Origin: Acidobacteriaceae bacterium
GTDB taxonomy: Bacteria > Acidobacteriota > Terriglobia > Terriglobales > Acidobacteriaceae
Assembly: GCA_027311125.1 (NCBI GenBank)
Contig: DAICZO010000307.1
Coordinates: 1-61,049, forward strand
DNA: 61,049 bases
Reading direction: 5' to 3'
Shown: positions 23,820-42,453 of the stretch, piece by piece
Position numbering within the stretch: position 1 is the first letter of the stretch
How the letters are laid out: each line of letters begins with the position of its first letter
The notes under the pieces: model-generated
The model's input: only the letters and a program-made list of their open reading frames with translations
What the model was told of the DNA's origin: nothing
The model's database searches: none
Program-made: the position numbers and the translations under genes

Positions 23820-24317
23820 TTACGACTGTGATTCAGTATCTGGCATGGAGAGGTAGATGAGTACGATGCCGACTACAGTGAACATACGGGCAGCAGCCTC
23901 CTGTCCATTCCAGGTTTTGGACTGCCACATGAGAAACCACTCCGCCCCGACGGAGAGGAAAGCGATGAACCACATGAGCAGGCTAAGCGTGAGAGCCATA
24001 ATGCCGAAACGTTTTGCCGTGTTGAAGCTGGAGGCCGAGGTGCGGAGGTTTTGCGCCAGGCGGTACGCACCAAGAAAACATAGGATGGTCGTGAGAATCT
24101 CCCAGCAGATGATGGAAGCGTAAAAGGCATGGTGAATTGTAGTGGTATTGATTGCTCTCCACATACCGGAGTTGCCGGGGAAGGTCGAGTCCATCATAAG
24201 GACGTGGTGGACAAACTGATAGTTTGAGTTGTAGTCGGTGGTGTTGTTGAAGACCACAAGCAGGTAGAAGAAGCCGATGGCAAAGAGCAGCAAGCACTTG
24301 GACAGACGAACAGTCAT
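23820..24317 (-). CDS. DUF2165-like membrane protein
   Basis: 165 aa, four hydrophobic segments; FFYLLVVFNNTTDYNSNYQFVHHVLMMDSTFPG pattern. Confidence 0.75.
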   Translation of the reverse strand: MTVRLSKCLLLFAIGFFYLLVVFNNTTDYNSNYQFVHHVLMMDSTFPGNSGMWRAINTTTIHHAFYASIICWEILTTILCFLGAYRLAQNLRTSASSFNTAKRFGIMALTLSLLMWFIAFLSVGAEWFLMWQSKTWNGQEAAARMFTVVGIVLIYLSMPDTESQS

Positions 24318-24323
24318 GGGGAG

Positions 24324-25244
24324 TTACTCCGAGGGAAAGGCTTGGAAGTACGCGGTGATGGCTGCGAGTGTTGCCTGATCGTAGGCAGGATTGCCGGGCA
24401 TGGTGGCTTTGCTATCCACGCGCCGCGGGTCGTGGACGTAGTTGGCAAAATCTACTGGATTGTGTCGGGCGTGGGCAGCCAGCGTTGACCAGGTGCGACC
24501 AGCTTTGGTGCCTCCTGCTGTACCGTGATTGTGGCATCGCAGGCAGTTCTCTTTGGCGATGGCAAAGCCGAGCACTACAGGAGAATCTGTTGGAAAATGG
24601 CCAGATGGAGTGATGGGGCCGAACTGGTCTTTCTGGGTGCCAAAACTTAGTAGGAACATTTCAGTTGGCTCCTGTGGCATATCTTGATGAGTGAGAACCT
24701 TGAACGAAGGCTTGAAGTCTGGGTATGTGATCATGTAGGGTCCGGGGTCTTGGTTCTTCGTCGCGGCGGCCCATTGGGACGTAGACAGGCCGTTGATTTT
24801 AAGGACCAGGATAGGATGGTGGGCGACGACGTATTCAGCCGGCAACTGGGATTGATACCGATCCACACAGAGCGCGTTCATCATGTCGGAGTTGGCTAGA
24901 ACTCCGATGATGCGAGCGAGCACGCTCAACTCGACACCGCTCACCTTAGCACGCGGCGTGTGGAGTTCGTTGAAATTGATATCCTCGACGATAGTTGTTT
25001 CTACCTGCGGCAGCGACAGCAGACTCTGATAGGGGATGAACCAGTGGCTAGAGGGGGGGACGCCAGCGATCATTCCTGTGACTTCCAGGTCCGTAACGCT
25101 ATGTCGCTGAGACTGGAGCAGCGGAGATGGTGTGACTGGTTGGGCTGAATGTGCGGAGGACAGCAGACTGCCACAGAAGATGCCACCTAAAGCGAGCAGG
25201 CCGATTAGTCTTTTGCGTTCCATACGTAATGCTAACCGCAACAA
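24324..25244 (-). CDS. c-type cytochrome with sulfite-oxidase-like N-terminal region
   Basis: Signal peptide; single haem motif CLRCH; ALCVDRYQSQLPAEYVVAHHPILVLKINGL resembles Mo-binding oxidoreductase fold. Confidence 0.65.
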   Translation of the reverse strand: MLRLALRMERKRLIGLLALGGIFCGSLLSSAHSAQPVTPSPLLQSQRHSVTDLEVTGMIAGVPPSSHWFIPYQSLLSLPQVETTIVEDINFNELHTPRAKVSGVELSVLARIIGVLANSDMMNALCVDRYQSQLPAEYVVAHHPILVLKINGLSTSQWAAATKNQDPGPYMITYPDFKPSFKVLTHQDMPQEPTEMFLLSFGTQKDQFGPITPSGHFPTDSPVVLGFAIAKENCLRCHNHGTAGGTKAGRTWSTLAAHARHNPVDFANYVHDPRRVDSKATMPGNPAYDQATLAAITAYFQAFPSE

Positions 25245-25292: not shown

Positions 25293-25751
25293 ATGGACAT
25301 TGAATCACAACTCTCTGCATACGGTCACCATTTGCCCGTGCTACCTAGCGCCGGTGGAAATTATCTTTCTGCAAAACGAGTAGGGAACATGTTGTATCTT
25401 GCGGGTGTGATCTCGACACGTGATGGTACCGTGCTGACTGGTACCGTTGGTGGCGAGCGAAGTATCGAAGATGGTTACGCTGCGGCTGCTGCTTGTGCAT
25501 TGACGCAGTTGGCAGTGATCAAACGGGAGCTGGGTACGCTGGACGCTGTGGAAGGTATTGTAGGGTTGAATGGATACGTGAATGCGGTTGCTGGATTTGC
25601 CGATTCGCCGAAGGTGATCAACGGAGCGTCAGATCTGCTCGTTGCAGCTTTTGGCGATGCGGGGCGTCATGTTCGAGCAGCCGTCGGTGTGAATGCTTTG
25701 CCACGTAACGCTATGGTTGAGATACAGATGACGGTGCTAGTGAAGTCATAA
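25293..25751 (+). CDS. RidA family protein (reactive enamine/imine deaminase family)
   Basis: YhgF/RidA-like VGNMLYLAGVISTRDG, GASDLLVAAFGDAGRHVRAAVGVNALPRNAMVEIQMTV. Confidence 0.9.
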   Translation: MDIESQLSAYGHHLPVLPSAGGNYLSAKRVGNMLYLAGVISTRDGTVLTGTVGGERSIEDGYAAAAACALTQLAVIKRELGTLDAVEGIVGLNGYVNAVAGFADSPKVINGASDLLVAAFGDAGRHVRAAVGVNALPRNAMVEIQMTVLVKS

Positions 25752-25801
25752 CCAGATTTGTCCACATTGCTGTCATTCACGAAGGAGAGGTCTGAGCAAC
25801 T

Positions 25802-26737
25802 ATGGCTGAATACAGTTTGTGTGCCATCCCTACGCATTCGGTTTGGGACAATCGGCTTAGCCCGCGACTCGTGGTGGTATCAGGCGACGTAGTGCATTTG
25901 GAATGTTTGGATTCCAGCGGGGGACAGGTAAAGCCATGGATGACGCTGCCCGAGTTTCTGGAGATTGATCGGAACCTGATTCATGCACTGACTGGGCCGA
26001 TCTATGTTGATGGCGCTGAACCCGGAGACGTGCTGGAGATACAGGTTCTAGAGGTTGAGCATCTTGGCTGGGGTTGGAGCAGTGTGATTGCAGGGCTTGG
26101 ATTCCTGGACAACCGCTTTACGGAGCCATCCCTTTTTCACTGGAAGCTTGATGGAGAGATGAGCTTTTCGTTGGCTCCTGCTGTTGTTCCGTTGCGCCCG
26201 TTTTGCGGTGTTATGGGAGTTGCTCGTGCAGAAGCAGGAAGTTTTCGTACGCGTCCACCGGGGGAGTTCGGGGGCAATATGGATGTGCGTGAGCTATGTG
26301 CTGGGTCGACTCTGTACCTGCCGGTGCAGGTGCGCGGAGCAATGTTCTCTGCAGGTGACGCCCATGCGGCGCAAGGAGATGGCGAGGTCTGCATCAACGG
26401 CATCGAGTGTCCAGCAAATGTGACACTTCGTTTTGTGTTGCACCGGCACCAGAAGTTGGCTGGGCCGTTGGTTGAAGTTGGACATAACAGTATTGAGCCG
26501 TCGTCTGCAGCGTGGCTCGTAGTGGAGTCTGCGGAGGATGCGTTGCAGGCGGCACGCACGGCTACCTCACGCATGGTCGATTTGCTGATTCAGACCTGGG
26601 ACTTTGAACCTGTGCAGGCTTATTTGCTGTGTAGCGTTGCCATGAATTTAAAGCTGAGTCAGGTTGTGAACCGGCCGATGACAACTGTAAGTGCTTCTAT
26701 CGCGAAAAGCATTCTTCCCCAACGGAGCTTGTTCTGA
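25802..26737 (+). CDS. Acetamidase/formamidase family protein
   Basis: GPIYVDGAEPGDVLEIQVLEVE, GNMDVRELCAGSTLYLPVQVRGAMFSAGDAHAAQGDGEVC. Confidence 0.93.
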   Translation: MAEYSLCAIPTHSVWDNRLSPRLVVVSGDVVHLECLDSSGGQVKPWMTLPEFLEIDRNLIHALTGPIYVDGAEPGDVLEIQVLEVEHLGWGWSSVIAGLGFLDNRFTEPSLFHWKLDGEMSFSLAPAVVPLRPFCGVMGVARAEAGSFRTRPPGEFGGNMDVRELCAGSTLYLPVQVRGAMFSAGDAHAAQGDGEVCINGIECPANVTLRFVLHRHQKLAGPLVEVGHNSIEPSSAAWLVVESAEDALQAARTATSRMVDLLIQTWDFEPVQAYLLCSVAMNLKLSQVVNRPMTTVSASIAKSILPQRSLF

Positions 26738-26739
26738 AC

Positions 26740-27126
26740 ATGGTGATTGAGATCAATGATGCTGCCACATTAACAGAGTTAGCGGAGCTTTATCCTAAGT
26801 ACGAAGAGGCGCTGGTTACGAATGACGTAGATACCCTGACCGCGATGTTCTGGGCAGCGCCTCATGTCATGCGTTTTGGTGTTACTGAGAATCTGTATGG
26901 TATTGAAGAGCTAGAGGCGTTTCGCAAAGGACGTTCTCCGGTGAATTTGGCTCGGCGGGTGAAGCGCTTGGACATCATTAGCTTTGGTAAAGACTTTGGC
27001 AGTATTACTCTCGAGTTTGAGCGCGAAAGCAATGGCAAGATTATGCGTGGCCGCCAGAGCCAAACCTGGGTGCGGATGCCGGAAGGCTGGCGAATTGTTG
27101 CAGCACACGTATCACTGCTGCCATAA
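26740..27126 (+). CDS. HpxZ/AtzH-like protein (DUF3225)
   Basis: LYPKYEEALVTNDVDTLTAMFWAAPHVMRFGVTENLYGIEELEAFRKGRSP motif characteristic of this family. Confidence 0.82.
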   Translation: MVIEINDAATLTELAELYPKYEEALVTNDVDTLTAMFWAAPHVMRFGVTENLYGIEELEAFRKGRSPVNLARRVKRLDIISFGKDFGSITLEFERESNGKIMRGRQSQTWVRMPEGWRIVAAHVSLLP

Positions 27127-27155
27127 GAGTTGCAAAGTGTGTTGGCCCGCCAGAA

Positions 27156-27977
27156 CTAGCAGCTTACGGTAACGTAAAGTGATGTGATTGCTGCTGCCTG
27201 GAACTGGTCTTGCAAGTCCTTGGCTGATGCAAAGCTCTTGCCTTGCACGTGGCGTGCGGGCAGGGTGAATTGAAGTTTCGGTTGCGCGAATGGGTAGGGT
27301 GAGAGTTGGAAGTGGCGCTCACCTACATACTTAACCATAATCTCCTGTTGGCCACCGTTGGTTAGCGGTAGTGGATGAAGTAAGGTCGCTGGATGGCGGT
27401 AATCGACGCAGGAGAGTAGCGATAAATTGTCTGTTGCCTGGAGCAGTCGAAAGTGCTGTTGGATTCGTGGCCACGCGATCTCGTATGGTGTCAGTTTGTT
27501 GTCGGTAGCAATGCTGGTGTGCAAATGCTGCTGCAACAAACGCTGACGTTCCAGGAAGGCATCGAGCAGTGGGAGTTGTGCTGAAGCTATGGTCGAGCGG
27601 TCAGCACGCTCGGTAAGTAGGTTGTAGGTGTGCAGTGATACGAGCAGAGCTGCGTACGGATCCTCGGCTGCGACCACTGCTACTGCGCGCTCTCGGACGG
27701 CAAGATAATCGGCGAGGTCGATCTCTTCGAATGCAGAGTATTTCCCCACGAGTTCAACCGAGAAAGCCGAGGGCAGCCCTGCCTTGGTGATCTGCGGCTC
27801 TGCATCTCGGACCGCCCATCCGTCATCGTGTGTGGAGATGCCAAGGAGTACCTGACGTCGTGGGACCGGGGAAGAGAATTGCTCGTTGCCCCAATGCTCT
27901 GCAAAGGCTCCGGCGAGACGGGCGTGGTCAGGATGGGTGATAAGCCACCAACCGGTGGCAGAGGCAAGCCGCAACAT
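27156..27977 (-). CDS. DUF3891-like protein
   Basis: LITHPDHARLAGAFAEHWGNEQF...ISTHDDGW pattern. Confidence 0.78.
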   Translation of the reverse strand: MLRLASATGWWLITHPDHARLAGAFAEHWGNEQFSSPVPRRQVLLGISTHDDGWAVRDAEPQITKAGLPSAFSVELVGKYSAFEEIDLADYLAVRERAVAVVAAEDPYAALLVSLHTYNLLTERADRSTIASAQLPLLDAFLERQRLLQQHLHTSIATDNKLTPYEIAWPRIQQHFRLLQATDNLSLLSCVDYRHPATLLHPLPLTNGGQQEIMVKYVGERHFQLSPYPFAQPKLQFTLPARHVQGKSFASAKDLQDQFQAAAITSLYVTVSC

Positions 27978-28025
27978 GATGAATCCTTTCTTGTCTTTTC
28001 TTTGCCGAGTTTGATGGAGCAGAAT

Positions 28026-28817
28026 TTACTGCGATTCAGTCTTACGAGCTGACTCGTGCCAGTTATGTAAAAAGTAGTACTCAAGAAACATGACAGCAAA
28101 GAAAAACATAAAGCCTAGTACTGTTGCGGCTAAGACCAGGGCAAAAAGATAATCCGTTTGCAACTGAGCGAGCGCATATGTGATCGAGTAACCAAGGCCA
28201 CCTTGTCCAATGGAACTTGAGCCGGCGAATAGTTCGCCGGTGATGGCCCCGATGACCGAGATACCGCTTGCGATGCGTACTCCAGTAAAGAGTGAGGGAA
28301 GTGCATGAGGAAGGCGAAGCTTCCAGAGTATCTGTGCGCCAGATGCGTTTTGCATGAGGAACAGATTGACCATGTTTTCGTCGACGCTCACGAGACCTTG
28401 GGTAGTGTTCGCGATGATAGGGGCCAGACAGATGATGAAGGTGATCAAGGTGACAGCAAAGAGTCCTGCCCCGGCCCACATGATGATGAGTGGTGCTATG
28501 GCTACGATAGGTACTGTTTGCAGCAGGATGGTGTACGGCAGAAACATTAGTCGGAGCCATCTGGATTGCGCGAAGATTAGTGCTATTGCGGTACCGACGA
28601 AGATACTGGCAAGGAGACCGCTGGCTGCGGCTAGTGCCGTGATGTAGAAGGAGTTTGCCAGTGAGGGAAAACGGTGTATGACAGTTTGTGCGACAGCGAG
28701 AGGTGTTGGCAGCATGTAGGGCGGAATGCTAAGTGCCCAGATGAGAGCACGCCATAACAGCAGTAGCATCAGAAGTACGCCACCAGTGTTAAGCACGTTA
28801 TAGAAGGTGCGCTTCAT
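28026..28817 (-). CDS. ABC transporter permease (SsuC/ThiX-type)
   Basis: TM helices and EAA-type loop (LRLPHALPSLFTGVRIASGISVIGAITGE); ATGA overlap with upstream ATPase. Confidence 0.9.
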   Translation of the reverse strand: MKRTFYNVLNTGGVLLMLLLLWRALIWALSIPPYMLPTPLAVAQTVIHRFPSLANSFYITALAAASGLLASIFVGTAIALIFAQSRWLRLMFLPYTILLQTVPIVAIAPLIIMWAGAGLFAVTLITFIICLAPIIANTTQGLVSVDENMVNLFLMQNASGAQILWKLRLPHALPSLFTGVRIASGISVIGAITGELFAGSSSIGQGGLGYSITYALAQLQTDYLFALVLAATVLGFMFFFAVMFLEYYFLHNWHESARKTESQ

Positions 28818-29635
28818 TCGCTCTGCACTCCTCGCAGTGTCTTACTGATAATCGCGATGTACTCTTCAAAAGCTGGGAGCTGCCGTGTTTCTGCACTGCG
28901 GGGGTAGGGCAGGTTGATCGGAAACTCATATGCGATACGACCAGGGTGCGGTGCCATGATGAGGACGCGTGAAGATAGAAAGACTGCTTCTGCAACAGAA
29001 TGAGTAACAAAGAGCGCCGTCCAGTTCTGTTCCTGCTGGAGTCGTAGAACCTCCTCGTTGAGTCGGTCACGTGAAATCTCATCGAGTGCAGCAAACGGCT
29101 CGTCCATGAGCAACACGCGTGGCCTGGTTGAGAGAGCACGTGCGATGGATACACGCATCTTCATACCACCGGAGAGTTGGCGTGGATACGACTTGGCTGC
29201 GTGGCTTAGGTTTACCAACTCCAGAAGTGAAGCGACTTTCTCCTTGCGCCGTTCGCGCGTGGCGTGCTCGAGTTCGAGTCTCAACCCAACGTTGTCTTCG
29301 ACTGTTCGCCATGGGAGGAGAGTTGCATCCTGAAAGATGAAGGAGACGATCTCACGTGCGTTTGCAGGAGTCATTCCGTCGATGCAGATTTTCCCGGAGG
29401 TGGGCAGAGTCAGGCCGGCAACCAGTTTGAGCATAGTTGACTTTCCACAGCCGGATGGGCCGATCAAGCTTACGAACTCGCCTCGGTGGACGGATAGATC
29501 TATATGTTCCAGAATCTGCTGGTGGGATCGTCCCCTGTCGCTGTTGTAGGATTTTGAGACTCCAGAAAAAGCTATCTCAGGAAGCTCCTTTGATTGGGGA
29601 AGTGCGGGCGAGTTGAGGTTATCCGTTGTCATCAT
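28814..29635 (-). CDS. ABC transporter ATP-binding protein (SsuB/TauB-type)
   Basis: Walker A GPSGCGKST, LSGGMKMRVSIARAL, Walker B VLLMDEPF; start overlaps stop of upstream hydrolase (TAATG). Confidence 0.95.
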   Translation of the reverse strand: MMTTDNLNSPALPQSKELPEIAFSGVSKSYNSDRGRSHQQILEHIDLSVHRGEFVSLIGPSGCGKSTMLKLVAGLTLPTSGKICIDGMTPANAREIVSFIFQDATLLPWRTVEDNVGLRLELEHATRERRKEKVASLLELVNLSHAAKSYPRQLSGGMKMRVSIARALSTRPRVLLMDEPFAALDEISRDRLNEEVLRLQQEQNWTALFVTHSVAEAVFLSSRVLIMAPHPGRIAYEFPINLPYPRSAETRQLPAFEEYIAIISKTLRGVQSE

Positions 29636-31365
29636 TACTCAGGAAGCAGCGGGAGTCGCAGACGAGAGGGAAAGTGCAGATCATGACGAACTGTGTGCGT
29701 ACAACGCTGCCACGTCCACGGATCTGCGAGAGAGTGGGCAATGTCGCTGGAAGAATTGCGATCATATAACGGGAAAGCAGAGCCAGCGATTTCAAGTCGA
29801 ATACGGTCTCCGGCAGCAAATATGCATGAGGTTGGCTCTAGTGTGAATGCCCACGTATGCAGTATGTCTGCCGTGTAGTTGGAGGCACGGAAGAGGTAGC
29901 TTGAGCGTGCAATGCCAAGAGCAATGAACTCAGCTCGATTGTCGGGTGTTAGCCGTACCAGTTTTCCTGTCACGTCGGCATTACTTGCGGATGTAGAACA
30001 GTAGAGGGTGAGTTCGGCTGATCCTAAGACGTGGATTGGTTCTGGGAGTGGTGAGGACGTGTAGACGAGAAGATTATTGCCTTGCGCTAGTACAGACTGA
30101 TCGAAGGGGCCACTAAGTGCGGTACTACCGCCGGGCGCGAAGACAGGTACCTCAGGATCGTAGACGAAGTGATCGGCTGGTTGTGTAGTGGTTGGAGGTT
30201 CCATGCTGAGAGTGCCATCGCCTTTGGACGAGTTTGCACGGCCATCGCTGGAGAGGTAAAGCGTGATGGCCTTAGTGCTGGTAAGGACATCTGTTGCAAA
30301 CCAGCGGCTCGTTGCTGGCTGGTTGTGGCCGAGCGCGAAGTGGCGAATTCGCGGTTGACCTGCGAATTCGTTGGAGTCCTTAAGCCAGTGATTGAACCAG
30401 CGCAGCAGAAGGGAATCGGTGTCTATTGAAGCATCGGAGCCAAAGTTTGTGTCGCCAATACGTGAACCCCAAGGGATGTGTTGCCAAGGGCCGGCAAGTA
30501 GGTACTGATTCTGGCGGGCGAAGGGAGTTGCCGCTTGTTGCGCAAGTGCGAGAAATCCATCGTAGCTTCCCTGTAGGTATGTGTCGTACCAGCCGGAGAC
30601 ATGCAGTGCTGGAACGTTGATTTGTGTGAGCGAGGTACTGATGTCGAGTGCAGACCAGAACTCGCTGGGCACAGTATGGGCAAACCAATCGTGGACGTAG
30701 GTCGGCAGGCCAGTGGATTGAAGTGCGGGCAGCTTGGCGTATGGCGCAAAAAGTGGCTGAGTCCGAACGTTGGACCAGGCTGCTTCAAGTTGGTCGTGTG
30801 CCTGCCGTAGGCCGAGTCTGCGAGCGTCGGAACGCAACATCTGGAGACCCCAGCCCATAGCCGATGACAGCCGGAGTGCCCCATGATGATAGAAACATCC
30901 GTGATAGAGGTCGCAGGCGGTCATGGCCGGAGCAATGCATAGAAGTCCTTCAGGTTGTTCCGCTGCGGCCAGTAGCTGGGTTGCACCCTGATAGGAGAAG
31001 CCGTACATGCCGATCTTTCCATTGGATTCAGGTCGCGATCGCAACCATTGGATAGTCTCAGCCCCGTCGCGACGCTCAGATCGGAATGGGTAGAATTCTC
31101 CCTCGGAGTCACCGCGTCCCCGTACATCCTGAATAACGACGTTATAGCCATGTCGTGCAAACCAGACAGGATGTGGATAGACGACAGTGGAGGCAATGTC
31201 TCTACCGTAGGGTTGGCGCATGAGCAGGGTTGGATTCGAAGCGTGCATGGATGCAGGCGGGAAGTAATGATCCGAGTAGAGTGTGCATCCGTCAGACATG
31301 AGGCAAGGTACGCTCCGCTGGAGACGGACGCCGGAGCCGCAGTCGATCAATGACGTGATGGTCAA
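29635..31365 (-). CDS. CocE/NonD family alpha/beta hydrolase
   Basis: GRGDSEGEF, GKIGMYGFSYQGATQLLAA nucleophile motif, X-Pro dipeptidase C-terminal region; TTG start at 31365 overlaps creatininase stop (TTGA); longer track ORF to 31515 not supported. Confidence 0.9.
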   Translation of the reverse strand: MTITSLIDCGSGVRLQRSVPCLMSDGCTLYSDHYFPPASMHASNPTLLMRQPYGRDIASTVVYPHPVWFARHGYNVVIQDVRGRGDSEGEFYPFRSERRDGAETIQWLRSRPESNGKIGMYGFSYQGATQLLAAAEQPEGLLCIAPAMTACDLYHGCFYHHGALRLSSAMGWGLQMLRSDARRLGLRQAHDQLEAAWSNVRTQPLFAPYAKLPALQSTGLPTYVHDWFAHTVPSEFWSALDISTSLTQINVPALHVSGWYDTYLQGSYDGFLALAQQAATPFARQNQYLLAGPWQHIPWGSRIGDTNFGSDASIDTDSLLLRWFNHWLKDSNEFAGQPRIRHFALGHNQPATSRWFATDVLTSTKAITLYLSSDGRANSSKGDGTLSMEPPTTTQPADHFVYDPEVPVFAPGGSTALSGPFDQSVLAQGNNLLVYTSSPLPEPIHVLGSAELTLYCSTSASNADVTGKLVRLTPDNRAEFIALGIARSSYLFRASNYTADILHTWAFTLEPTSCIFAAGDRIRLEIAGSAFPLYDRNSSSDIAHSLADPWTWQRCTHTVRHDLHFPSRLRLPLLPE

Positions 31366-32156
31366 GGCTGAAACCTGTTGGAGTAATGGAACATGGCGGT
31401 GAGTGCTGCGGCGACTTTCTCTGCAGACTGCTTGATCCACTGAGCTCCGTGCTCTGCTGTGGCGGCGTTTGGATCGCCCATCACGCCACTGGGAGCGATG
31501 TCGCGCGTAAGCCAAGCAAATGTTGCTGGACCATTCTCTGGTAGCAAAGCTCCGGGTTGGTCAATCTGTGCGATGTAGTTCACGGTGTATAGCTCAGTGT
31601 GAACCAGTTCTGGAGTTCCATGGAGCAATAAGGCTGTCTCGTACTCCCCGGCATGAAATCCGTAGGCACGCTCCTGCAGTGAGATGTTTTCGAACTTGGC
31701 ACCACCTGAACCCGAGAGATAGAAGGTGCGCAGGCCAAACTCGGCGCGCAGATCGCGACACATGACGTCGTCGAGCGAGGTATTGCCGCCGTGCGTGTTG
31801 TACAGAACCATCTTCTTGAAGCCTGATGCCGCAACGCTGGCACCGATATCATGAACTACAGCCATGAAGGTAGAGGCCGAAACGGACATAGTTCCGGGAA
31901 AGCCAATGTGCTCGTTGCTTTTGCCATAACAGATGGGCGGCAATGCGAAGACAGGTAGTTCTTTGGGCAGCAGGGCCAGTGCATGTCCCAGAAGGAGATT
32001 ACTGATGAGCGTGTCAGTTGCGAGGGGAAGATGGTGACCATGCTGCTCGATTGCTGCTGTGGGTAGGATGATTAGCGTTTCATTCTTCGGGAGAGCTTCG
32101 ACCTGCTTCCAAGTCAGGTAGGCAAAGTTGCGCTCATCGGGAATCCAGGTCTTCAT
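31362..32156 (-). CDS. Creatininase family protein
   Basis: LIILPTAAIEQHGHHLPLATDTLI, YNTHGGNTSLDDVMCRDLRAEFG, FHAGEYETALLL metal-binding motifs. Confidence 0.93.
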   Translation of the reverse strand: MKTWIPDERNFAYLTWKQVEALPKNETLIILPTAAIEQHGHHLPLATDTLISNLLLGHALALLPKELPVFALPPICYGKSNEHIGFPGTMSVSASTFMAVVHDIGASVAASGFKKMVLYNTHGGNTSLDDVMCRDLRAEFGLRTFYLSGSGGAKFENISLQERAYGFHAGEYETALLLHGTPELVHTELYTVNYIAQIDQPGALLPENGPATFAWLTRDIAPSGVMGDPNAATAEHGAQWIKQSAEKVAAALTAMFHYSNRFQP

Positions 32157-33527
32157 CTAGTTTGCATCCTCCGCTACCAGATAGCTGGCCATCTTGCCAG
32201 GGTTCAACAAACCTTTGGGATCGTACTTACGCTTGGCCTGCAGTTGAATGTGGTCCTGCCGATAACGGCCTCCGCCTTCGACGTTGTTGACGTGTGGATT
32301 GGCGACGGTTACACCGATCTCGCGACAGAAATCTATCATTTCGTTCAACCGTTCTGCAGTGGTAAAGCGTACGACGGGAATTGAGCCTGGAACGACGAGG
32401 CCGTCACTATTTTTCATGAACTCTATATGAAAGAGGAAGTCGTCACCGTAGCGAGCTTTGAGTTGAGAAAACTGGCTGCGTGCGGTGGTGGGACTAAATC
32501 CGCATTGCAGGTAAGTGAGTGTATTGTCAGTCTTCATTGCCCAGAGCGTGGTGTGGTTCCACGTGTAGTCCGAGAGCAGTGGAGAAGTTCGCAGGCCTTC
32601 GTAGGCGGCGGCAAAGGTAATCTCCCCTCCGACAGCTTTTGCGGCTAATTGCAACTCCTCCAATTGTGCTGCCGCAATCATAAAAAAGATGTGGGCCTTG
32701 TCTGGCGTGATGATATTGCGTATCGGAGAGAAGCTGGCAGTGATTAGGGATTCGAAGGTCGTGACCAGTCGCTTGGTCCAGTGATTGCTGGTTGCGATCT
32801 GCTCACTGAAATCGAACGCTTCGTTGAAGCTGGGAAATGCAACCACACACTGTGCCCACTCTACCGCTGGAGTTAGGCAGAGCCATATACGCGAGATGAT
32901 TCCGTTAGTTCCCCAGGCATGAAGTATCTCGTGGATTGCATCGCCTTCGTGTTTGATGACTCGAGGTTCAGGTTCCATCGTTACAACTTCGAGAGCGCGT
33001 ACGGTGTTGAAGTCGCGTAGCCCCCCGTGCGCGACCGATCCGATGCCGCCTGATCCACCACCTAGAAATCCTCCGACCGAAGCCTTTGCGACGGTTGAGG
33101 GATAACAACGTAACTCCCATCCATGACGGCGGCCCTCATTCTCGATAAGGCTCAGTTTTGCACCAGGCTGGCAGATAGCGATACCGTCGGGATGAATGCA
33201 TTCGACTGCGTCCATCAGAGCGAGATCAAGTACTACGCCGCCTTGCAGTGGAATTGCCTGCCCATAGTTCCCGGTGCCAGCGCCTCGCGCTGTGACAGCG
33301 ATTCCTTGGTCATGACATAGCCGCAGGACGGCACAAATCTCGTCTACGCTAGTTGGCTGTACGACTACATCGCCGACTTTGTCTGAAAGGAGTTGCTTTA
33401 GGACGGGGGAGTACCAGTAAAAATCGCGCGAAAGACGCGCCACCGTTGCTGGATTGGTTAGTACTCTGTCTGCATCACCAATGACTTGCTTGAGATCATC
33501 GACGAAAGTCGAGAGAGTGGGCGTCAT
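32157..33527 (-). CDS. FAD-binding oxidase (GlcD/VAO-type)
   Basis: VVQPTSVDEICAVLRLCHDQGIAVTARGAGTGNYGQAIPLQGGVVLDLALM; GGFLGGGSGGIGSVAHGGLRDFNT. Confidence 0.92.
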   Translation of the reverse strand: MTPTLSTFVDDLKQVIGDADRVLTNPATVARLSRDFYWYSPVLKQLLSDKVGDVVVQPTSVDEICAVLRLCHDQGIAVTARGAGTGNYGQAIPLQGGVVLDLALMDAVECIHPDGIAICQPGAKLSLIENEGRRHGWELRCYPSTVAKASVGGFLGGGSGGIGSVAHGGLRDFNTVRALEVVTMEPEPRVIKHEGDAIHEILHAWGTNGIISRIWLCLTPAVEWAQCVVAFPSFNEAFDFSEQIATSNHWTKRLVTTFESLITASFSPIRNIITPDKAHIFFMIAAAQLEELQLAAKAVGGEITFAAAYEGLRTSPLLSDYTWNHTTLWAMKTDNTLTYLQCGFSPTTARSQFSQLKARYGDDFLFHIEFMKNSDGLVVPGSIPVVRFTTAERLNEMIDFCREIGVTVANPHVNNVEGGGRYRQDHIQLQAKRKYDPKGLLNPGKMASYLVAEDAN

Positions 33528-34105
33528 GCTATGGCTCGCTTTCCATTGTCGGAGACATGCTTCGAACGACTAGCGTTGCCCCAGGCTTTGAAGGCTCTCA
33601 GCATATTGGGATGGGTGAAGAGGGTGTAGGCTAAATCTCGTTCCACCGGGCCAACGACTTCGCAGGTCATGTCGCTTCGCTCGGCGACCTCGGTGGCTGG
33701 AATATGGATCTGACGGCAGTGTCGATTGGCATCGTCGATAGTGGCTCCGTAGACGATGCGATCAATTCCCGCCCACAGTAAATTGGCCATGCACATCGGG
33801 CAAGGTTCGCAGGTGGAGTACATGGTGTAGCCGCGCAGGGAGGGGGATTTGAGCTTTTTGCAGGCCATTCGAATCGTGCGTACCTCGGCATGGCTGCTGG
33901 GATCATTCTCTTTGGCAACAGCGTTCAATCCCTTGAGGAGCAGCTTGCCGGTCTTGGTTTCGACGATCATTGCGCCGAATGGCACAGGCTTGTCGGTGAC
34001 GAGTGTGCGTGCGGTGAATTGCACAATTTCCGTCATACGAGAGCTATCCAATACCGAAAGGCTCGGCTTTTTCTCTCTAGTGTGTCCCATGTCGAAATGT
34101 AACAC
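33524..34105 (-). CDS. Nucleoside/cytidine-type deaminase family protein
   Basis: Zn motifs SHAEVRTIR and STCEPCPMCMANLLWAGI; ATGA overlap with the FAD oxidase; ATG at 34090 (MGHTRE) also possible. Confidence 0.9.
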   Translation of the reverse strand: MLHFDMGHTREKKPSLSVLDSSRMTEIVQFTARTLVTDKPVPFGAMIVETKTGKLLLKGLNAVAKENDPSSHAEVRTIRMACKKLKSPSLRGYTMYSTCEPCPMCMANLLWAGIDRIVYGATIDDANRHCRQIHIPATEVAERSDMTCEVVGPVERDLAYTLFTHPNMLRAFKAWGNASRSKHVSDNGKRAIA

Positions 34106-34190
34106 GACATGCCAGATTTGCTAAAGCGAAGAGTGATTTGTAGAACTACACAAGGCTGTTTTTTGCTGGTGCAGCCCTTAGAATTTAGGT

Positions 34191-35510
34191 ATGCACAACG
34201 TCATGACGCCTCTGGAAGAGGTGCAGAAACGGCTAAGGTCAGATCCGGGCGCGATCGTCGAGGAGATCAACGAAGCTTTAGGCCACTCGAACTCCAATGC
34301 TGGCCACAACGTTTATTTGTGTCAGCAGAGGGATCGTACTCGCGCCGAAGCGACTAGGCTCGCGGATGTAGGATTACGGCCGCACCTACCGCTGTTTGGC
34401 GTGCCTGTGTCTGTCAAGGACTGCTTTGATGTTGAAGACTATGTCACTAGTTGTGGATCACGTTTTTACGCGGAGAATAATTCACCCGCTTCCAAAGATG
34501 CATGGATTGTGCAACAGGTGCGCTCTGCGGGTGGAGTGATTACCGGCAAGACACACATGCACCAACTGGCCTACGGGATAACAGGTGAGAATGCGTACTT
34601 CGGGGATTGCTGTCAGCCACGGAATGCTTCTTTGCTCACAGGGGGATCATCCAGTGGAGCGGTCGCCAGTGTCCAGGAGGGCTCGGCGATGGTGGCGATT
34701 GGCACCGATACGGGTGGATCGATTCGGGTACCTTCAGCACTTTGTGGGGTAGTTGGATATCGCTCGTCGGTGGGTGTTGGGAATTGGCAGGGCGGAGTAC
34801 ATCTGGCCCAATCATTTGATACGTTTGGCTTCTTTTGTCGCGACCTGCGCGATCTGCCGTTGATTGCCTCCGCAGTACTGGGGATCGGATCGGTAAAGGC
34901 ACCTATAGAGTTAAAGACCGCACGCATTGCTGTCGTTCCTGCGGGCTTTCTGTATGACTGCGATGCCAGCATTCTTGCTGCCTATGCGATGCGACAGCAA
35001 GAACTTGAGCAATTGGGGGCACACATTGCGACGGTAAATATTTCGTATTGGGCTCAAGCGATGGAAATATTCGCCCCAATCCAAGCGCATGAGGCAGCAG
35101 CAATCCAACGTGAAAAGCTGGCTGGACGAGCAGGTTTTGAGGTCTTTGAGCCTGCCATTGCAGAGCGACTATCGTGGGGCGCTTCCATTTCCGTTACAGA
35201 AATGGAAGCGCTTCGTGAGAGACAGCGTAAGTTCCGAGAGTCAATGGACTCTATGTTGCAGCAGTATGATTATTTGCTGATGCCGTGTGCGCCTATGTCG
35301 CAGTTGCCGGCCGGTGCTGACCACTCGAAGACCAGGCAGCAGATTTTGCGGTACACCACCCCGGGCAGTCTGGCGGGAATGCCCGTGGTCACCTTGCCGT
35401 GCCCGGGCGGGATTGGAATGCAGCTAGTTTGCGGACGGGGCAGGGATGCTGAACTTTTGGCGTACGCATCTGCTCTAGGGGAAAGATTTCTGTCTGAAAC
35501 TTGTGCCTAG
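34191..35510 (+). CDS. Amidase signature family enzyme (AtzE/AtzF/GatA-like)
   Basis: Ser-cisSer-Lys triad motifs: GVPVSVKDCFD, GGSSSGAVASVQEG, IGTDTGGSIRVPSALCGVVGYR. Confidence 0.95.
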   Translation: MHNVMTPLEEVQKRLRSDPGAIVEEINEALGHSNSNAGHNVYLCQQRDRTRAEATRLADVGLRPHLPLFGVPVSVKDCFDVEDYVTSCGSRFYAENNSPASKDAWIVQQVRSAGGVITGKTHMHQLAYGITGENAYFGDCCQPRNASLLTGGSSSGAVASVQEGSAMVAIGTDTGGSIRVPSALCGVVGYRSSVGVGNWQGGVHLAQSFDTFGFFCRDLRDLPLIASAVLGIGSVKAPIELKTARIAVVPAGFLYDCDASILAAYAMRQQELEQLGAHIATVNISYWAQAMEIFAPIQAHEAAAIQREKLAGRAGFEVFEPAIAERLSWGASISVTEMEALRERQRKFRESMDSMLQQYDYLLMPCAPMSQLPAGADHSKTRQQILRYTTPGSLAGMPVVTLPCPGGIGMQLVCGRGRDAELLAYASALGERFLSETCA

Positions 35511-35528
35511 AATGCTAGGCTGCTGAGC

Positions 35529-36518
35529 ATGAGTCGTTTTTTCAAGCTGACCCTTGGATTTATTGTGCTGATTGGCGCAGCAGCCTTGTTGAATGGCTGC
35601 CAACATAAGCCTGCCAGTGGTTTGATTTCGGTCAAGTTGCAGACGGACTGGTATCCGCAGCCGGAGCACGGTGGATTCTACATGGCTTTGCTGAAGGGCT
35701 ACTACAAGGATGCTGGGCTGGATGTACAGATTCTTCCTGGTAGTCCATACATCACCGGGGAGCAGTTAGTTTCCGTTGGTTCGGTGCAGTTCGCCATGGG
35801 GTCGTCCGACAGGATGATTGAGGCGGTAGCAGGCGGTCAGCCGCTACTAGCGGTTGGTGCGACCATGCAGCATGATCCGCAGGCCGTGATGGTTCACGCC
35901 GAGTCTCCTGTACATAATTTTGCTGATCTGAACGGACACGCAATATCCGTGCGACCGCCCGCGACATGGTTTGAGTACATCGTGAAGCGATTTGGTTTGA
36001 AGGATGTTCGAGAAGTTCCTGCAACATACAGTGTGGCTAACTTTATCAAGGACCCTGAATATATTCAGCAGATCTTTGTTACGTCGGAACCCTTCTATGT
36101 AAAGAAGGCCGGCATTCCGTTACGGACGCTACTGATCAGCGAGACTGGCTACGACCCATATCGAGTCTTTTTTACCTCGCGTGACTACGCCAAGTCCCAT
36201 CCGGATGTTGTGGCAAAGTTTGTGCTGGCCTCTATTCGGGGCTGGCATGATTACCTGCAAGATCCCAAGTCTGCAAATGATCTGATCCGAAAACTCAATC
36301 CAGCGATGGATCCAGAGTTGATGCAGTTCAGTTATGAGGCGTTGCGGGATGGACACTTTATCGACGGCTCTGCGCCAGCAGGCACGATCGGAGCTCAACT
36401 GGGGCAGTTCGATCCCCAACGTTGGGCAGCGATGTCCCGACAGCTAACGGAGTTGAAGTTGGTGGACAAGCCGATTGATCCTTCCACGGTTTACACCATG
36501 AAATTCCTCAGCAAGTAA
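35529..36518 (+). CDS. ABC transporter substrate-binding lipoprotein (NMT1/THI5-like, ThiY-type)
   Basis: Lipobox LLNGC; VKLQTDWYPQPEHGGFYMALLKGYYKDAGLDVQILPG. Confidence 0.9.
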   Translation: MSRFFKLTLGFIVLIGAAALLNGCQHKPASGLISVKLQTDWYPQPEHGGFYMALLKGYYKDAGLDVQILPGSPYITGEQLVSVGSVQFAMGSSDRMIEAVAGGQPLLAVGATMQHDPQAVMVHAESPVHNFADLNGHAISVRPPATWFEYIVKRFGLKDVREVPATYSVANFIKDPEYIQQIFVTSEPFYVKKAGIPLRTLLISETGYDPYRVFFTSRDYAKSHPDVVAKFVLASIRGWHDYLQDPKSANDLIRKLNPAMDPELMQFSYEALRDGHFIDGSAPAGTIGAQLGQFDPQRWAAMSRQLTELKLVDKPIDPSTVYTMKFLSK

Positions 36519-36554: not shown

Positions 36555-37643
36555 GTGTATTCAGTGGACGTTCTGAGTGTAATGCAGGGTGTTTCAGCGC
36601 CAGTACCAGCCATAGCCAAACCTATTGTGATGATCGGTTCTGGTGGGATCGTACATGATGCCCATCTGCCTGCGTATCGAAAGGCGCAGTTTCCAGTGGC
36701 GGCTTTGGTGGACGTGAACCAGGATAAGGCAATTGCGCTTGCCGGTGAGTTTGCAATCCCGTTCGCGACGGACTCTATCGCTGCGGCTGTTAGCTATGCC
36801 CCAGCAGGTTCTATCTTCGACGTTGCGGTCCCGGCCAAGGTGATCTCGAGTATCCTCCCGCAGTTGCCGGATGGAGCCGCTGTACTCATCCAGAAGCCGA
36901 TGGGGGAGACTTTAGCGGAAGCGGTCGAGATTTTGCGTATCTGCCGTGCTAAGCGACTGACCGCGGCGATTAATTTCCAATTGCGCTGGTCCCCGAATAT
37001 GCTGGCTGCGCGCGCTTTACATGCGACCGGAGTAATTGGGGAAGTGCATGATATGGAGGTCGCTGTCAGCGTCCATATGCCTTGGGCGCTGTGGAGTTTT
37101 TTAAATACTGCTCCTCGGCTGGAGATTCTCTACCATTCGATTCATTACGTCGATTTGATACGTTCGTGGTTTGGAAATCCGCTCGGTGTCTATGCTCGGA
37201 CTGTGAAAAGCCCTCGTACTCCAGCCTTGGCAGCAACCAAGAGCGTTATTATTTTTGACTACGGGGAGGGGAAGCGAGTCTTTCTCACGGCCAATCATAG
37301 TCATGATTTCGATCCTAAGATGCAACGTAGTTACGTGCAGTGGGAGGGGATGACAGGGGCAATGCGCGCTCAGATGGGAGTGAACTTAAACTATCCCGAG
37401 GGCAAGCCAGACAATCTGCATTACATCGTGGCGGGGAGTGGTGGCTGGTGCGAGGCTCCTGTGAGTGGTAACTGGTTTCCGGATGCCTTCATCGGGTCGA
37501 TGGGGAGCCTGCAACGGTATGTTCAAGGTGAAGACGGTACGTTACCAACCAGCGTGGAAGATGCAATCGATACCATGCGCACCGTTGAAGCTGCCTATAT
37601 TTCGAGCAAACGTGGGAGTATTTCGCTGCCGGAGATTGAGTAG
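36555..37643 (+). CDS. Gfo/Idh/MocA family oxidoreductase
   Basis: IVMIGSGGIVHDAHLPAYRKAQFPVAALVDVNQDKA, VLIQKPMGETLAEAVEILRI. Confidence 0.92.
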   Translation: MYSVDVLSVMQGVSAPVPAIAKPIVMIGSGGIVHDAHLPAYRKAQFPVAALVDVNQDKAIALAGEFAIPFATDSIAAAVSYAPAGSIFDVAVPAKVISSILPQLPDGAAVLIQKPMGETLAEAVEILRICRAKRLTAAINFQLRWSPNMLAARALHATGVIGEVHDMEVAVSVHMPWALWSFLNTAPRLEILYHSIHYVDLIRSWFGNPLGVYARTVKSPRTPALAATKSVIIFDYGEGKRVFLTANHSHDFDPKMQRSYVQWEGMTGAMRAQMGVNLNYPEGKPDNLHYIVAGSGGWCEAPVSGNWFPDAFIGSMGSLQRYVQGEDGTLPTSVEDAIDTMRTVEAAYISSKRGSISLPEIE

Positions 37644-37661
37644 TACGCCTTACGGCTGGGG

Positions 37662-38420
37662 TCAGCGTCCCATCCATCCGCCATCGACGGTTAGTATGGT
37701 TCCGGTGACATAGTTGCTGGCAGCAGAACTGAGGAATAATGCGGCTCCAGCAAGGTCGCTTGGGTCACCCCATCGCCCGGCTGGGATCCGTTCGAGGATC
37801 TGACGATTGCGGGTCTCGTCAGCTTGCAGGGCTGAGGTGTTGTCTGTTCTGAAGTAGCCAGGAGCGATGGCGTTGACTTGAATGCCTTTTGCAGCCCATT
37901 CGTTGGCCAATGCCTTGGTGAGTTGGGCGACAGCTCCTTTGGATGCGGCATAGGCGGGGACACGGATGCCTCCCTGAAAGCTGAGCAAGGAGGCAATGTT
38001 TACTATCTTGCCCGAACCGCGTGGGATCATGTCGCGTGCAGCTAGTTGCGAGAGCTGGAAGACGCTGGTCAAGTTGACTTGCAGGACTTGCTGCCAGTCC
38101 TCGAGAGCGACGTCTTCGGCAGCCTCACGATGAATGGTGCCGGCGTTATTGATCAAGATATCGATGCGTCCAAACTTTGCGACTACCTGGCTGAAGAGGT
38201 CTGCGGCTCCACTGGTGGTGGACAGGTCTGCACGAAACGCTGCTGCGTCACCGCCGATCTTTTCCGCGGTCTCGGTTGCTGGGCGGCGGTTGCCGTGGAC
38301 GGCGACGGTTGCACCGGCCTGTGCCAGCGCCGTAGCAATGGCGGCACCCAGACCGCTGGCTGCACCGGTTATCAGGGCGACTTTGTTGGGGAGACGGAAG
38401 CTGTCAATTACGTTTAGCAT
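37662..38420 (-). CDS. kduD: SDR oxidoreductase, 2-deoxy-D-gluconate 3-dehydrogenase/KduD-like
   Basis: ITGAASGLGAAIATALAQAG, NNAGTIHREAAEDVALEDWQQVLQVNL, YAASKGAVAQLTKALANEWAAKGIQVNAIAPGYFRTDNT; adjacent to kduI. Confidence 0.88.
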   Translation of the reverse strand: MLNVIDSFRLPNKVALITGAASGLGAAIATALAQAGATVAVHGNRRPATETAEKIGGDAAAFRADLSTTSGAADLFSQVVAKFGRIDILINNAGTIHREAAEDVALEDWQQVLQVNLTSVFQLSQLAARDMIPRGSGKIVNIASLLSFQGGIRVPAYAASKGAVAQLTKALANEWAAKGIQVNAIAPGYFRTDNTSALQADETRNRQILERIPAGRWGDPSDLAGAALFLSSAASNYVTGTILTVDGGWMGR

Positions 38421-38505
38421 GGCAAACCCACTCTACCAGCCTGACAAAGAATCCGCACCACTCGCTATACTAATTGCGTAGCAGTTCCAGTTGAACAGGA
38501 GATTT

Positions 38506-39336
38506 ATGAGGCTGTATCAGATGGCGGATCAGATCCGCTACGGATTGATGAACACGGAAGAGTTGCGCGAGACCTTTCTGCTGGAAGATATGTTTGAGCC
38601 CGGTCAAATTGAGTGCGCGTATGTTGACCTGGATCGGACTGTGATTGGTGCAGCCGTACCGTTGCATGAGCCACTGACGCTGGAAGTCGAGTCAGAGTTG
38701 CGTGCGGATTACTTCCTTGAACGCCGTGAGTTGGGGGTGCTGAACGTCGGTGGAGCAGGATCGGTTACCGTGGACGGCAAGGTTTTCGACTTGGGTAAAT
38801 TGGACTGCTTGTATGTTGGGCGTAGCAGCAAACAGGTCAGTTTCGCCAGTGCAGACGCATCGGCACCGGCGTATTTCTACCTGCTCAGCTATCCTGCTCA
38901 TGCAGAGTATCCAACGGCAATGGTAAAGTTTGCGGACATGCAGGGGCTGGCCTTGGGATCAGTGGAGACATGCAATAAGCGAATCATCTATAAAGCGATC
39001 TACCGCGACGGTATCAAGAGTTGTCAGCTTGTGATGGGCTTTACGTTGCTGGAGGCTGGAAGCAACTGGAATACAATGCCACCGCATACTCATATGCGCC
39101 GATCAGAGGTTTATTTCTACTTTGATGTCGATCCTGCGCACCGTGTATTGCACTTGATGGGGCCACCGGATGCCACCAGTCACCTTATTGTGGCTGACAA
39201 AGAGGTAGTCGTGTCGCCTGGTTGGTCGATTCATGCGGGTGTTGGCACCAAGAACTACGCTTTTTGCTGGGGCATGGGCGGAGAGAATCAAGCCTACGAT
39301 GATATGGACGGCGTTACCATCGCCGAACTGAGATGA
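38506..39336 (+). CDS. kduI: 5-dehydro-4-deoxy-D-glucuronate isomerase
   Basis: SD AGGAG before ATG 38506; NTEELRETFLLEDMFEPGQIECAYVDLDRTVIGAAVP, NTMPPHTHMRRSEVYFYFD, GMGGENQAYDDMD. Confidence 0.96.
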   Translation: MRLYQMADQIRYGLMNTEELRETFLLEDMFEPGQIECAYVDLDRTVIGAAVPLHEPLTLEVESELRADYFLERRELGVLNVGGAGSVTVDGKVFDLGKLDCLYVGRSSKQVSFASADASAPAYFYLLSYPAHAEYPTAMVKFADMQGLALGSVETCNKRIIYKAIYRDGIKSCQLVMGFTLLEAGSNWNTMPPHTHMRRSEVYFYFDVDPAHRVLHLMGPPDATSHLIVADKEVVVSPGWSIHAGVGTKNYAFCWGMGGENQAYDDMDGVTIAELR

Positions 39337-40445
39337 AGCCAGGCAATACATCCGATACCGCGGGTCTTCGCCTGCGTCCGAAGCAGCAGTGCCGTTGGGA
39401 TGTGGTCAGCATGGGCGAAGTGATGCTTCGTTTTGATCCTGGTGAAGAGCGCACCACCACCACCCGGAATTTCCGCGTGTGGGAGGGTGGCGGTGAGTAC
39501 AACGTGGCGCGTGGACTGCGACGGTGCTTTGGCCAGCGCACGTCCATCGTAACCACACTCGCCGATAACTCCGTTGGCAGATTGCTGGAAGACCTGATGC
39601 TGCAGGGCGGGGTGGATCTGTCGCACCTGCGCTGGGTGGAGTACGACGGTATTGGTCGCGAGGCTCGCAACGGGATCTATTTTCTGGGACGAGGCTTCGG
39701 CAATCGTGGTGCGTTGGGCATGATGGACCGTGGCCACACGCCAATCTCGCAGCTAAAGCCTGGCCAGATTGACTGGGACCAAATCTTTGCCCAGGAAGGT
39801 ACTCGCTGGTTCCATACCGGTGGCGTGATGAGTTCACTTTCCGTGGATTCTCCGGCGGTGGTTAAGGAAGCAATGCAGTCCGCACGGCGTCATGGTGTGA
39901 TTGTTTCCTACGACTGCAACTATCGCCCGTCACTGTGGAAGCATGCAGGTGGACGACAGGCGGCCTGTAATGTGAATCGCGTCCTTGCCCCTTATGTGGA
40001 TGTGCTGTTCGGACATGAAGGCGATGTTGCCGCTACCCTAAGCGAGGCCTCACAAGGGCCACCGTGGCACGACCTTGACAGTTACACCGCTATGGCTCAC
40101 CGTGTTTGTGCGGAGTTTGCTGATATCAAGCTAATTGCGACGACGACAAGGCGTCCGAAGAGCGCCAATCGCAACGATTGGGCCGCCTTTGCTTATGCAG
40201 AAGGTCAACCTGTGCAGAGTATCGAGTTTCAGGATCTGGAGATCTTTGACCGAGTGGGTGGGGGAGATTCGTTTGCTGCAGGCCTCATCTATGGGTTGCT
40301 GGAGGGCAAGGGAATCCAATGGTCGCTCGACTGCGGGGTCGCGCATGGAGCATTGGCGATGACTACTCCGGGGGATAGCTCGATGGCCACGCTGACTGAG
40401 GTAGAACGTCTGATGCTTGGTGGTTCGGCGGCAGTTCAGCGGTAG
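39333..40445 (+). CDS. PfkB-family sugar kinase (likely 2-keto-3-deoxygluconate kinase)
   Basis: VVSMGEVMLRFDPGEERTT, EVFDRVGGGDSFAAGLIYGLL; ATGA-type overlap with kduI. Confidence 0.9.
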   Translation: MKPGNTSDTAGLRLRPKQQCRWDVVSMGEVMLRFDPGEERTTTTRNFRVWEGGGEYNVARGLRRCFGQRTSIVTTLADNSVGRLLEDLMLQGGVDLSHLRWVEYDGIGREARNGIYFLGRGFGNRGALGMMDRGHTPISQLKPGQIDWDQIFAQEGTRWFHTGGVMSSLSVDSPAVVKEAMQSARRHGVIVSYDCNYRPSLWKHAGGRQAACNVNRVLAPYVDVLFGHEGDVAATLSEASQGPPWHDLDSYTAMAHRVCAEFADIKLIATTTRRPKSANRNDWAAFAYAEGQPVQSIEFQDLEIFDRVGGGDSFAAGLIYGLLEGKGIQWSLDCGVAHGALAMTTPGDSSMATLTEVERLMLGGSAAVQR

Positions 40446-40477
40446 TCGCTATATAACAATCCATTGTTTGGAAGGAA

Positions 40478-41146: not shown

Positions 41147-41155
41147 TCGACTTTG

Positions 41156-42385: not shown

Positions 42386-42453
42386 ATCGGCGCAAGACTA
42401 TCACGCTTCTGCATAGTTTGAGCAGCCGAGTTGAGGGGCGATAAGCTAGTTGA

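Follow-up and report, generated by a model that had tools for sequence, protein, structure and literature searches.

Which compound is imported and degraded by the gene island at positions 23820-36518 of contig DAICZO010000307.1 from an Acidobacteriaceae bacterium (assembly GCA_027311125.1)? The stretch of DNA analysed here, referred to as the window, comprises positions 1 to 61,049 of this contig (contig 363 of a genome with 63% completeness), and among named taxa it is closest to Granulicella and other Acidobacteriaceae. Our analysis indicated that the island is rather likely to be a cassette for import and catabolism of pteridines (pterin or lumazine, folate-derived), with pterins broken down for nitrogen. 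The predicted CDA-fold deaminase, a flavin adenine dinucleotide (FAD) enzyme of the 6V42 type, a creatininase-family hydrolase and one ATP-binding cassette (ABC) importer are conserved together in Acidobacteriota and Verrucomicrobiota. The first-pass annotation of this DNA had described a broad N-heterocycle or ureide catabolic island comprising uptake, deamination and FAD-dependent oxidation, followed by a step of the creatininase family and the cleavage of amides. This general outline was in agreement with our results; of its substrate framing the N-heterocycle part was supported and the generic ureide part only partly so, and 6V42/6V43 homology and a related proteobacterial cassette narrowed the substrate to pteridines.

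A pteridine substrate is favoured by the homology of the FAD enzyme to 6V42/6V43, titled in the PDB as a flavin oxygenase with bound cofactor, involved in folate catabolism. The homology extended over the full length (about 40% identity, phmmer 1.9e-100 over residues 18-448), and 6V42/6V43 was the sole PDB match at or below 1e-20. It also ranked first when the model of the FAD enzyme was searched with Foldseek (E 2.6e-37, TM 0.84); the model was of moderate confidence (pLDDT 73), and its fold match agreed with the sequence match, which stands on its own. The FAD enzymes of Acidobacteriota and Verrucomicrobiota, the proteobacterial enzymes and 6V42 had 71 residues in common, many of them outside the FAD domain. 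A reading as GlcD or D-lactate dehydrogenase was rejected: the GlcD cut-off was not reached (78.5 vs 567.9 bits), and because the HxGDGN motif (0 of 84 family members) and a hit to the FAD-oxidase C-terminal domain were lacking, the enzyme is not of the GlcD type.

The FAD enzyme belongs to a block of 14 genes that is conserved in soil Acidobacteria and whose core has a related counterpart in Verrucomicrobia. Family searches (Pfam, NCBIfam) covered the window genes from 21262 to 42385, and every gene named in the first-pass annotation was found in its place and fitted its family. The members of the cassette are:

23820-24317, minus strand: DUF2165 small membrane protein (PF09933, 8.5e-61)
24324-25244, minus strand: exported c-type cytochrome (cytC) with a CLRCH motif, adjoining DUF2165 and RidA in related loci too
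25293-25751, plus strand: RidA-family imine/enamine hydrolase (PF14588, 1.4e-19)
25802-26737, plus strand: short amidohydrolase of the FmdA_AmdA family (PF03069, 1.8e-51)
26740-27126, plus strand: AtzH/HpxZ-like protein (DUF3225; PF11533, 2e-48)
27156-27977, minus strand: DUF3891 protein, last gene of the core operon (PF13030, 5.8e-45)
28026-28817, minus strand: ABC permease of the importer (PF00528, 1.8e-24)
28814-29635, minus strand: ABC ATPase of the importer (PF00005, 2.2e-34)
29635-31365, minus strand: alpha/beta hydrolase of the CocE/NonD type (S15) with the catalytic motif GFSYQG (TIGR00976, 4e-107)
31362-32156, minus strand: creatininase-superfamily metal amidohydrolase (PF02633, 4.4e-68)
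32157-33527, minus strand: VAO/PCMH-fold FAD enzyme, homologue of 6V42/6V43 (phmmer 1.9e-100)
33524-34105, minus strand: CDA-fold zinc deaminase (DEAM), guanine-deaminase-like (PF00383, 8.4e-22)
34191-35510, plus strand: amidase-signature hydrolase (AMID), AtzE-like (PF01425, 8.6e-68)
35529-36518, plus strand: NMT1/THI5-type substrate-binding lipoprotein with an LNGC lipobox (PF09084, 5.2e-36)

The core operon runs on the minus strand from DEAM through the FAD enzyme, creatininase, CocE, ATPase and permease to DUF3891; its genes overlap or touch as far as the permease, which is separated from DUF3891 by 48 bp. The amidase and the NMT1 lipoprotein are divergent from it, RidA and the FmdA-like and AtzH-like genes at the other end are convergent with DUF3891, and the cytC/DUF2165 pair is divergent from RidA. 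The CocE open reading frame (29635-31515) was over-long, as homologues begin near residue 51-54; the probable true start is a TTG at 31365 that overlaps the stop codon of the creatininase gene (TTGA). Operon limits were drawn from gene spacing, because a scan for sigma-70 promoters and terminators found sites no more numerous than in shuffles; an Rfam search found no riboswitch near the operons, a tRNA being its sole match.

The closest relative of the island was a proteobacterial cassette. A tblastn search against plasmids gave 141 records, mostly from Rhizobium, and eight plasmid loci were inspected (Rhizobium, Klebsiella, Alloyangia, Agrobacterium, Rahnella, Roseateles, Pantoea and Leisingera). 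Like the window, they carry homologous genes for the creatininase, NMT1 binding protein, ATPase, permease and FAD enzyme, together with a RidA gene; identity to the window was 32-37% for the permeases, 44-54% for the ATPases and 30-35% for the binding proteins. They differ in having an amidohydrolase deaminase and, in most cases, a flavin reductase (FMN_red or PDR/VanB type), whereas the window has the CDA-fold deaminase, lacks the reductase, follows another operon order and adds CocE, amidase, FmdA-like, AtzH-like, DUF3891, cytC and DUF2165 genes. In a phylogenetic tree, the cassette creatininases formed one group apart from 18 others (support 92/84), with the enterobacterial enzymes nearest the acidobacterial ones (99/96), within the limits set by long branches among the other creatininases, those 18 being drawn only from relatives of the window. 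From its 66-67% identity to the Rhizobium enzymes we infer that 6V42, too, has its origin in a proteobacterial cassette of this kind.

This comparison also bears on the substrate. The Klebsiella amidohydrolase adjoining the cassette matched 2PAJ at 2e-201, a further reason to favour pteridines, and we take 2PAJ to be the isoxanthopterin- and pterin-6-carboxylate-deaminating enzyme of its family. Members of the 2PAJ-like amidohydrolase family deaminate isoxanthopterin and pterin-6-carboxylate (PMC5270733). In NZ_CP074582.1 (loci L109/L112), from a blood isolate of Klebsiella pneumoniae, the cassette is plasmid-borne and adjoins genes for a 2OG-Fe(II) oxygenase and the 2PAJ-like amidohydrolase. 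The setting of the proteobacterial deaminases likewise resembles that of known pterin deaminases and thus speaks for pteridines: the published Arad3529 and the Variovorax F1 enzyme PDA (Vapar5141) are amidohydrolases, and the Variovorax gene is followed downstream by an 'endoribonuclease' gene (PMC9513972), whose product is presumably of the RidA type.

For the window deaminase, the best PDB match was guanine deaminase 1TIY (4.8e-19). Its zinc motifs were intact (HAE at 72-74 and PCPMC at 101-105, within CEPCPMC), the zinc residues being invariant in 78 sequences. Pterin has the same 2-amino-4-oxopyrimidine half as guanine, and it is this half that is deaminated; the guanine-deaminase likeness of DEAM therefore favours a pteridine substrate, and we propose DEAM as a candidate pterin deaminase. 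Of the 156 confirmed FAD-enzyme matches obtained from 85,488 scanned species, the best 80 were kept, and these are the 80 loci referred to below. The CDA-fold deaminase was present in 78 of the 80 loci and in none of the eight inspected proteobacterial ones; conversely, searches with three cassette amidohydrolases as queries found the proteobacterial-type deaminase in 0 of the 80 at 1e-10. Since the cores are homologous, the deaminase types mutually exclusive and the creatininases one group, the two arrangements are best read as one shared cassette with one step replaced, that is, a non-orthologous replacement of the deaminase.

The same deaminase, being closest to guanine deaminase, could alternatively point to a purine, guanine-like or oxidised, as the substrate (8-oxoguanine, guanine/xanthine or a urate-like compound), in which case the FAD enzyme would have changed its substrate after diverging from the folate oxygenase. 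Oxalurate and purine catabolism involve proteins of the HpxZ type, and an amidohydrolase resembling 8-oxoguanine deaminase was found near the cassette in nine loci (eight verrucomicrobial, one acidobacterial; e.g. L107:2393-3784), so that some loci have two deaminases. We nevertheless consider a purine substrate unlikely, as many of the 71 residues shared with 6V42 lie outside the FAD domain, and neither urate oxidase nor allantoinase nor an allantoate enzyme was found among the cassette genes.

The PDB relatives of the NMT1 lipoprotein included 4NMY, the formylaminopyrimidine (FAMP)-binding protein 3IX1 and THI5. We counted the latter two also for pteridines, and they can be cited as well for a monocyclic pyrimidine or thiamine-type precursor (e.g. 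formylaminopyrimidine or 5-substituted cytosines), as could the annotation of the proteobacterial cassette deaminases as cytosine deaminase (PRK07583). That label is, however, indecisive, because pterin deaminases, too, are amidohydrolases related to these (PMC9513972). Given the folate link of the FAD enzyme, and as the cassette genes include none for thiamine salvage, such a substrate is quite improbable.

The pteridine reading treats the island as one unit, and its conservation was examined in a genus sample of 37 genomes, that of the window included. Close relatives of the FAD enzyme (66-77% identity) were found in 7 of the 36 other genus genomes; beyond those, no match better than E 7e-16 was found in 61 relatives. 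The NMT1, FmdA, AtzH, creatininase and FAD-enzyme genes occurred in the identical set of 8 of the 37 genomes, and the chance that one further gene shares this set by independent draw is 2.6e-8. The earlier claim that the three sub-clusters belong together thus passed a check of phylogenetic co-occurrence. In the eight genomes the cassette genes were nearly always physically linked, in the fetched loci within about 14 kb, with blocks inverted or moved: the amidase-NMT1 pair adjoins DUF2165 in loci L023, L026, L027 and L025, the cassette of genome G005 is split over two contigs, each ending in the permease, and AtzH of G016 lies on another contig. DUF2165 was present in all eight and in G018 and G036. 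By sequence comparison, cytC (24324-25244), DUF2165 (23820-24317) and DUF3891 belong to the cassette; the first-pass annotation overlooked the cytC/DUF2165 pair. The set, conserved in seven further genus genomes and largely in the 80 loci, is therefore not due to chance.

Genome G036 (L121:3956-7244) keeps AMID, RidA, cytC and DUF2165 without the core, the layout expected if the part from FmdA to DEAM had been deleted, and G006 has a second RidA/FmdA/AtzH/cytC/DUF2165 set. Both would suit three independent side-by-side modules acting on unrelated substrates (amidase/RidA/cytC/DUF2165; deaminase-FAD enzyme-creatininase-ABC; FmdA/AtzH), as would the absence of FmdA and AtzH from the fetched flanks of many of the 80 loci, but the identical eight genomes and an importer split over two sub-clusters, with its binding protein in one and its permease and ATPase in the other, make this the least probable of the alternatives.

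By record title or by sequence, all of the best 80 loci were from Acidobacteriota or Verrucomicrobiota (L084, L088 and L033 have acidobacterial-like sequences under the titles Verrucomicrobiota and Rhodanobacteraceae, a matter of misbinning or transfer). The creatininase was present in at least 79 of them, DEAM in at least 78, CocE in at least 75, the permease, ATPase and NMT1 protein in at least 70 each, DUF3891 in at least 55, the amidase in at least 48, and FmdA and AtzH in at least 34 each, these counts being lower bounds because of limited flanks and broken contigs. Cultured strains with the FAD enzyme and the greater part of the cassette include Granulicella aggregans M8UP14, Bryocella elongata, Terracidiphilus gabretensis and Silvibacterium bohemicum. 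Only 8 of 396 genomes of a phylum-wide sample had the FAD enzyme, which marks it as a patchy, accessory trait. In 21 acidobacterial loci (e.g. L085:16508-20572), the gene directly downstream from DUF3891 encodes an Oar-like outer-membrane receptor, possibly the importer of the substrate across the outer membrane; no such receptor adjoins the cassette in the window. Among the verrucomicrobial loci, ten had a TonB receptor near the cassette and eight a flavodoxin-like protein (judged by eye, without a Pfam hit). Genes for molybdenum-hydroxylase (PaoA/XdhB-like) subunits, enzymes that could hydroxylate pterins, were located no more than 10 kb away from the FAD-enzyme gene in L040, L044, L049, L052, L058, L060 and L061.

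Among the remaining hydrolases, three fell below the cut-offs of specific enzyme assignments. The assignments of 25802-26737 as a typical formamidase FmdA (108.6 vs a cut-off of 500 bits, NCBIfam equivalog) and of 34191-35510 as AtzE (198.7 vs 461 and 195.4 vs 425.75 bits, NCBIfam) were not upheld, although the amidase motifs were intact (K, GGSSSG/GTDTGGSIR). For 31362-32156, creatininase proper (98.6 vs 235 bits) and MftE (123.9 vs 172 bits) were rejected by NCBIfam cut-offs. Motifs were intact in the CocE and creatininase-like enzymes, too. The AtzH/HpxZ-like protein passed the NCBIfam HpxZ equivalog cut-off (153.1 vs 135 bits), and its residues Y21, R45, R62, R65, R72, R95, Q106 and Q108, conserved in 31 sequences, correspond to the eight positions of the dicarboxylate pocket probed in AtzH (PMC6219798); since all eight are conserved, a dicarboxylate resembling N-carboxy-urea is a fair guess for its ligand. 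Foldseek (E<=0.001) matched the confident model of DUF3891 (pLDDT 93.9) to no fold in the PDB. Eight residues (H15, H18, H50, D51, E84, E85, H116 and D183) were invariant in the window protein and 50 homologues, which suggests a candidate metal site of H, D and E residues. An HD-domain or other known fold, guessed from the conserved H and D residues, found no support in Pfam, PDB sequence or Foldseek searches.

In the proposed route, the importer (NMT1 lipoprotein, permease and ATPase) would bring in the pterin, and DEAM would convert the 2-amino-4-oxo pteridine to a lumazine, taking the role of the unrelated proteobacterial amidohydrolase. The FAD enzyme would then oxidise or open the pyrazine ring, the creatininase-like enzyme would hydrolyse a cyclic or N-acyl amide, RidA would clear imine or enamine, and CocE, amidase and the FmdA-like and AtzH-like proteins would turn the remaining amide or ureide fragments into ammonia, CO2 and small acids. 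The order of steps in the first-pass annotation was supported in part, its steps after FAD oxidation being conjectural. Because a reductase is missing and cytC is present, several redox partners are conceivable for the FAD enzyme, and electron transfer to cytochrome c is possible as an acidobacterial variant. That the cassette achieves complete mineralisation of the pteridine ring in soil Acidobacteria and Verrucomicrobia, with a guanine-deaminase-type enzyme replacing the known pterin deaminase and DUF3891 catalysing a ring-opening or fragment-cleaving step, is a tentative extension and rather unlikely.

The lines of evidence for pteridines, drawn from comparative sequence analysis, agree with one another. 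Several observations weigh on the other side. The substrate is not settled by an identity of about 40% to 6V42. No flavin reductase (FMN_red or PDR/VanB type) was found among the searched window genes, although such a gene accompanies most proteobacterial cassettes, and several verrucomicrobial ones have a flavodoxin-like gene. Nor do the cassette genes include one resembling carboxypeptidase G or any other that is plainly specific to folate. In the eight proteobacterial cassettes, CocE, DUF3891, AMID, FmdA and AtzH were without counterpart, except for a weak CocE match about 5 kb beyond the Rahnella cassette. The likeness of Arad3529 to the cassette deaminases is one of enzyme type.

On the far side of the NMT1 gene, the window continues with an ordinary uronate-use cluster (36555-44703: KduD, KduI, KdgK, KdgA, an alginate-lyase-like protein and a TonB receptor). 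These KDG/alginate genes were ruled out as cassette members, since they are not conserved alongside it. A Vut_1 family transporter (putative vitamin uptake; queuosine-precursor type) at 47997-48689 adjoins a tRNA-Glu.

Pterins and folates enter soil from all cells. Their environmental degradation is not fully elucidated, and the Variovorax study ends at deamination (PMC9513972); our literature search found no published pteridine pathway beyond this step. The cassette thus offers testable candidate genes for the later steps of pterin breakdown, connects this chemistry with two bacterial groups of soil and water, exemplifies the exchange of a single enzyme in an otherwise conserved cassette, and provides a setting in which to place DUF3891, DUF2165 and a subfamily of creatininases.

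Among known systems, the parallels with uracil, oxalurate and cyanuric acid degradation drawn in the first pass proved weaker than that with folate. As in the Rut uracil pathway, a RidA-family protein stands beside a flavin-dependent oxidative enzyme, but RutA/B/D/E/F were not found in the island and the FAD enzyme has the VAO fold, not the luciferase-like one of RutA. The protein at 26740-27126 fits the HpxZ model of the oxalurate pathway (HpxWXYZ), while HpxW, HpxX and HpxY were not identified in the island. With the AtzE-AtzH system of cyanuric acid degradation (PMC6219798) the island shares an AtzH-like protein with all eight pocket residues and an amidase-signature enzyme; AtzD, AtzG and AtzF were not found in it, and its AtzH and amidase genes lie in separate operons. 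Arad3529 and the Variovorax F1 deaminase catalyse the reaction proposed for DEAM, deamination of the pterin ring, with an amidohydrolase in place of a CDA-fold zinc deaminase. Most likely, the island is a rearranged acidobacterial version, with another deaminase, of the already known but poorly characterised folate-breakdown cassette of Rhizobium and Klebsiella relatives.

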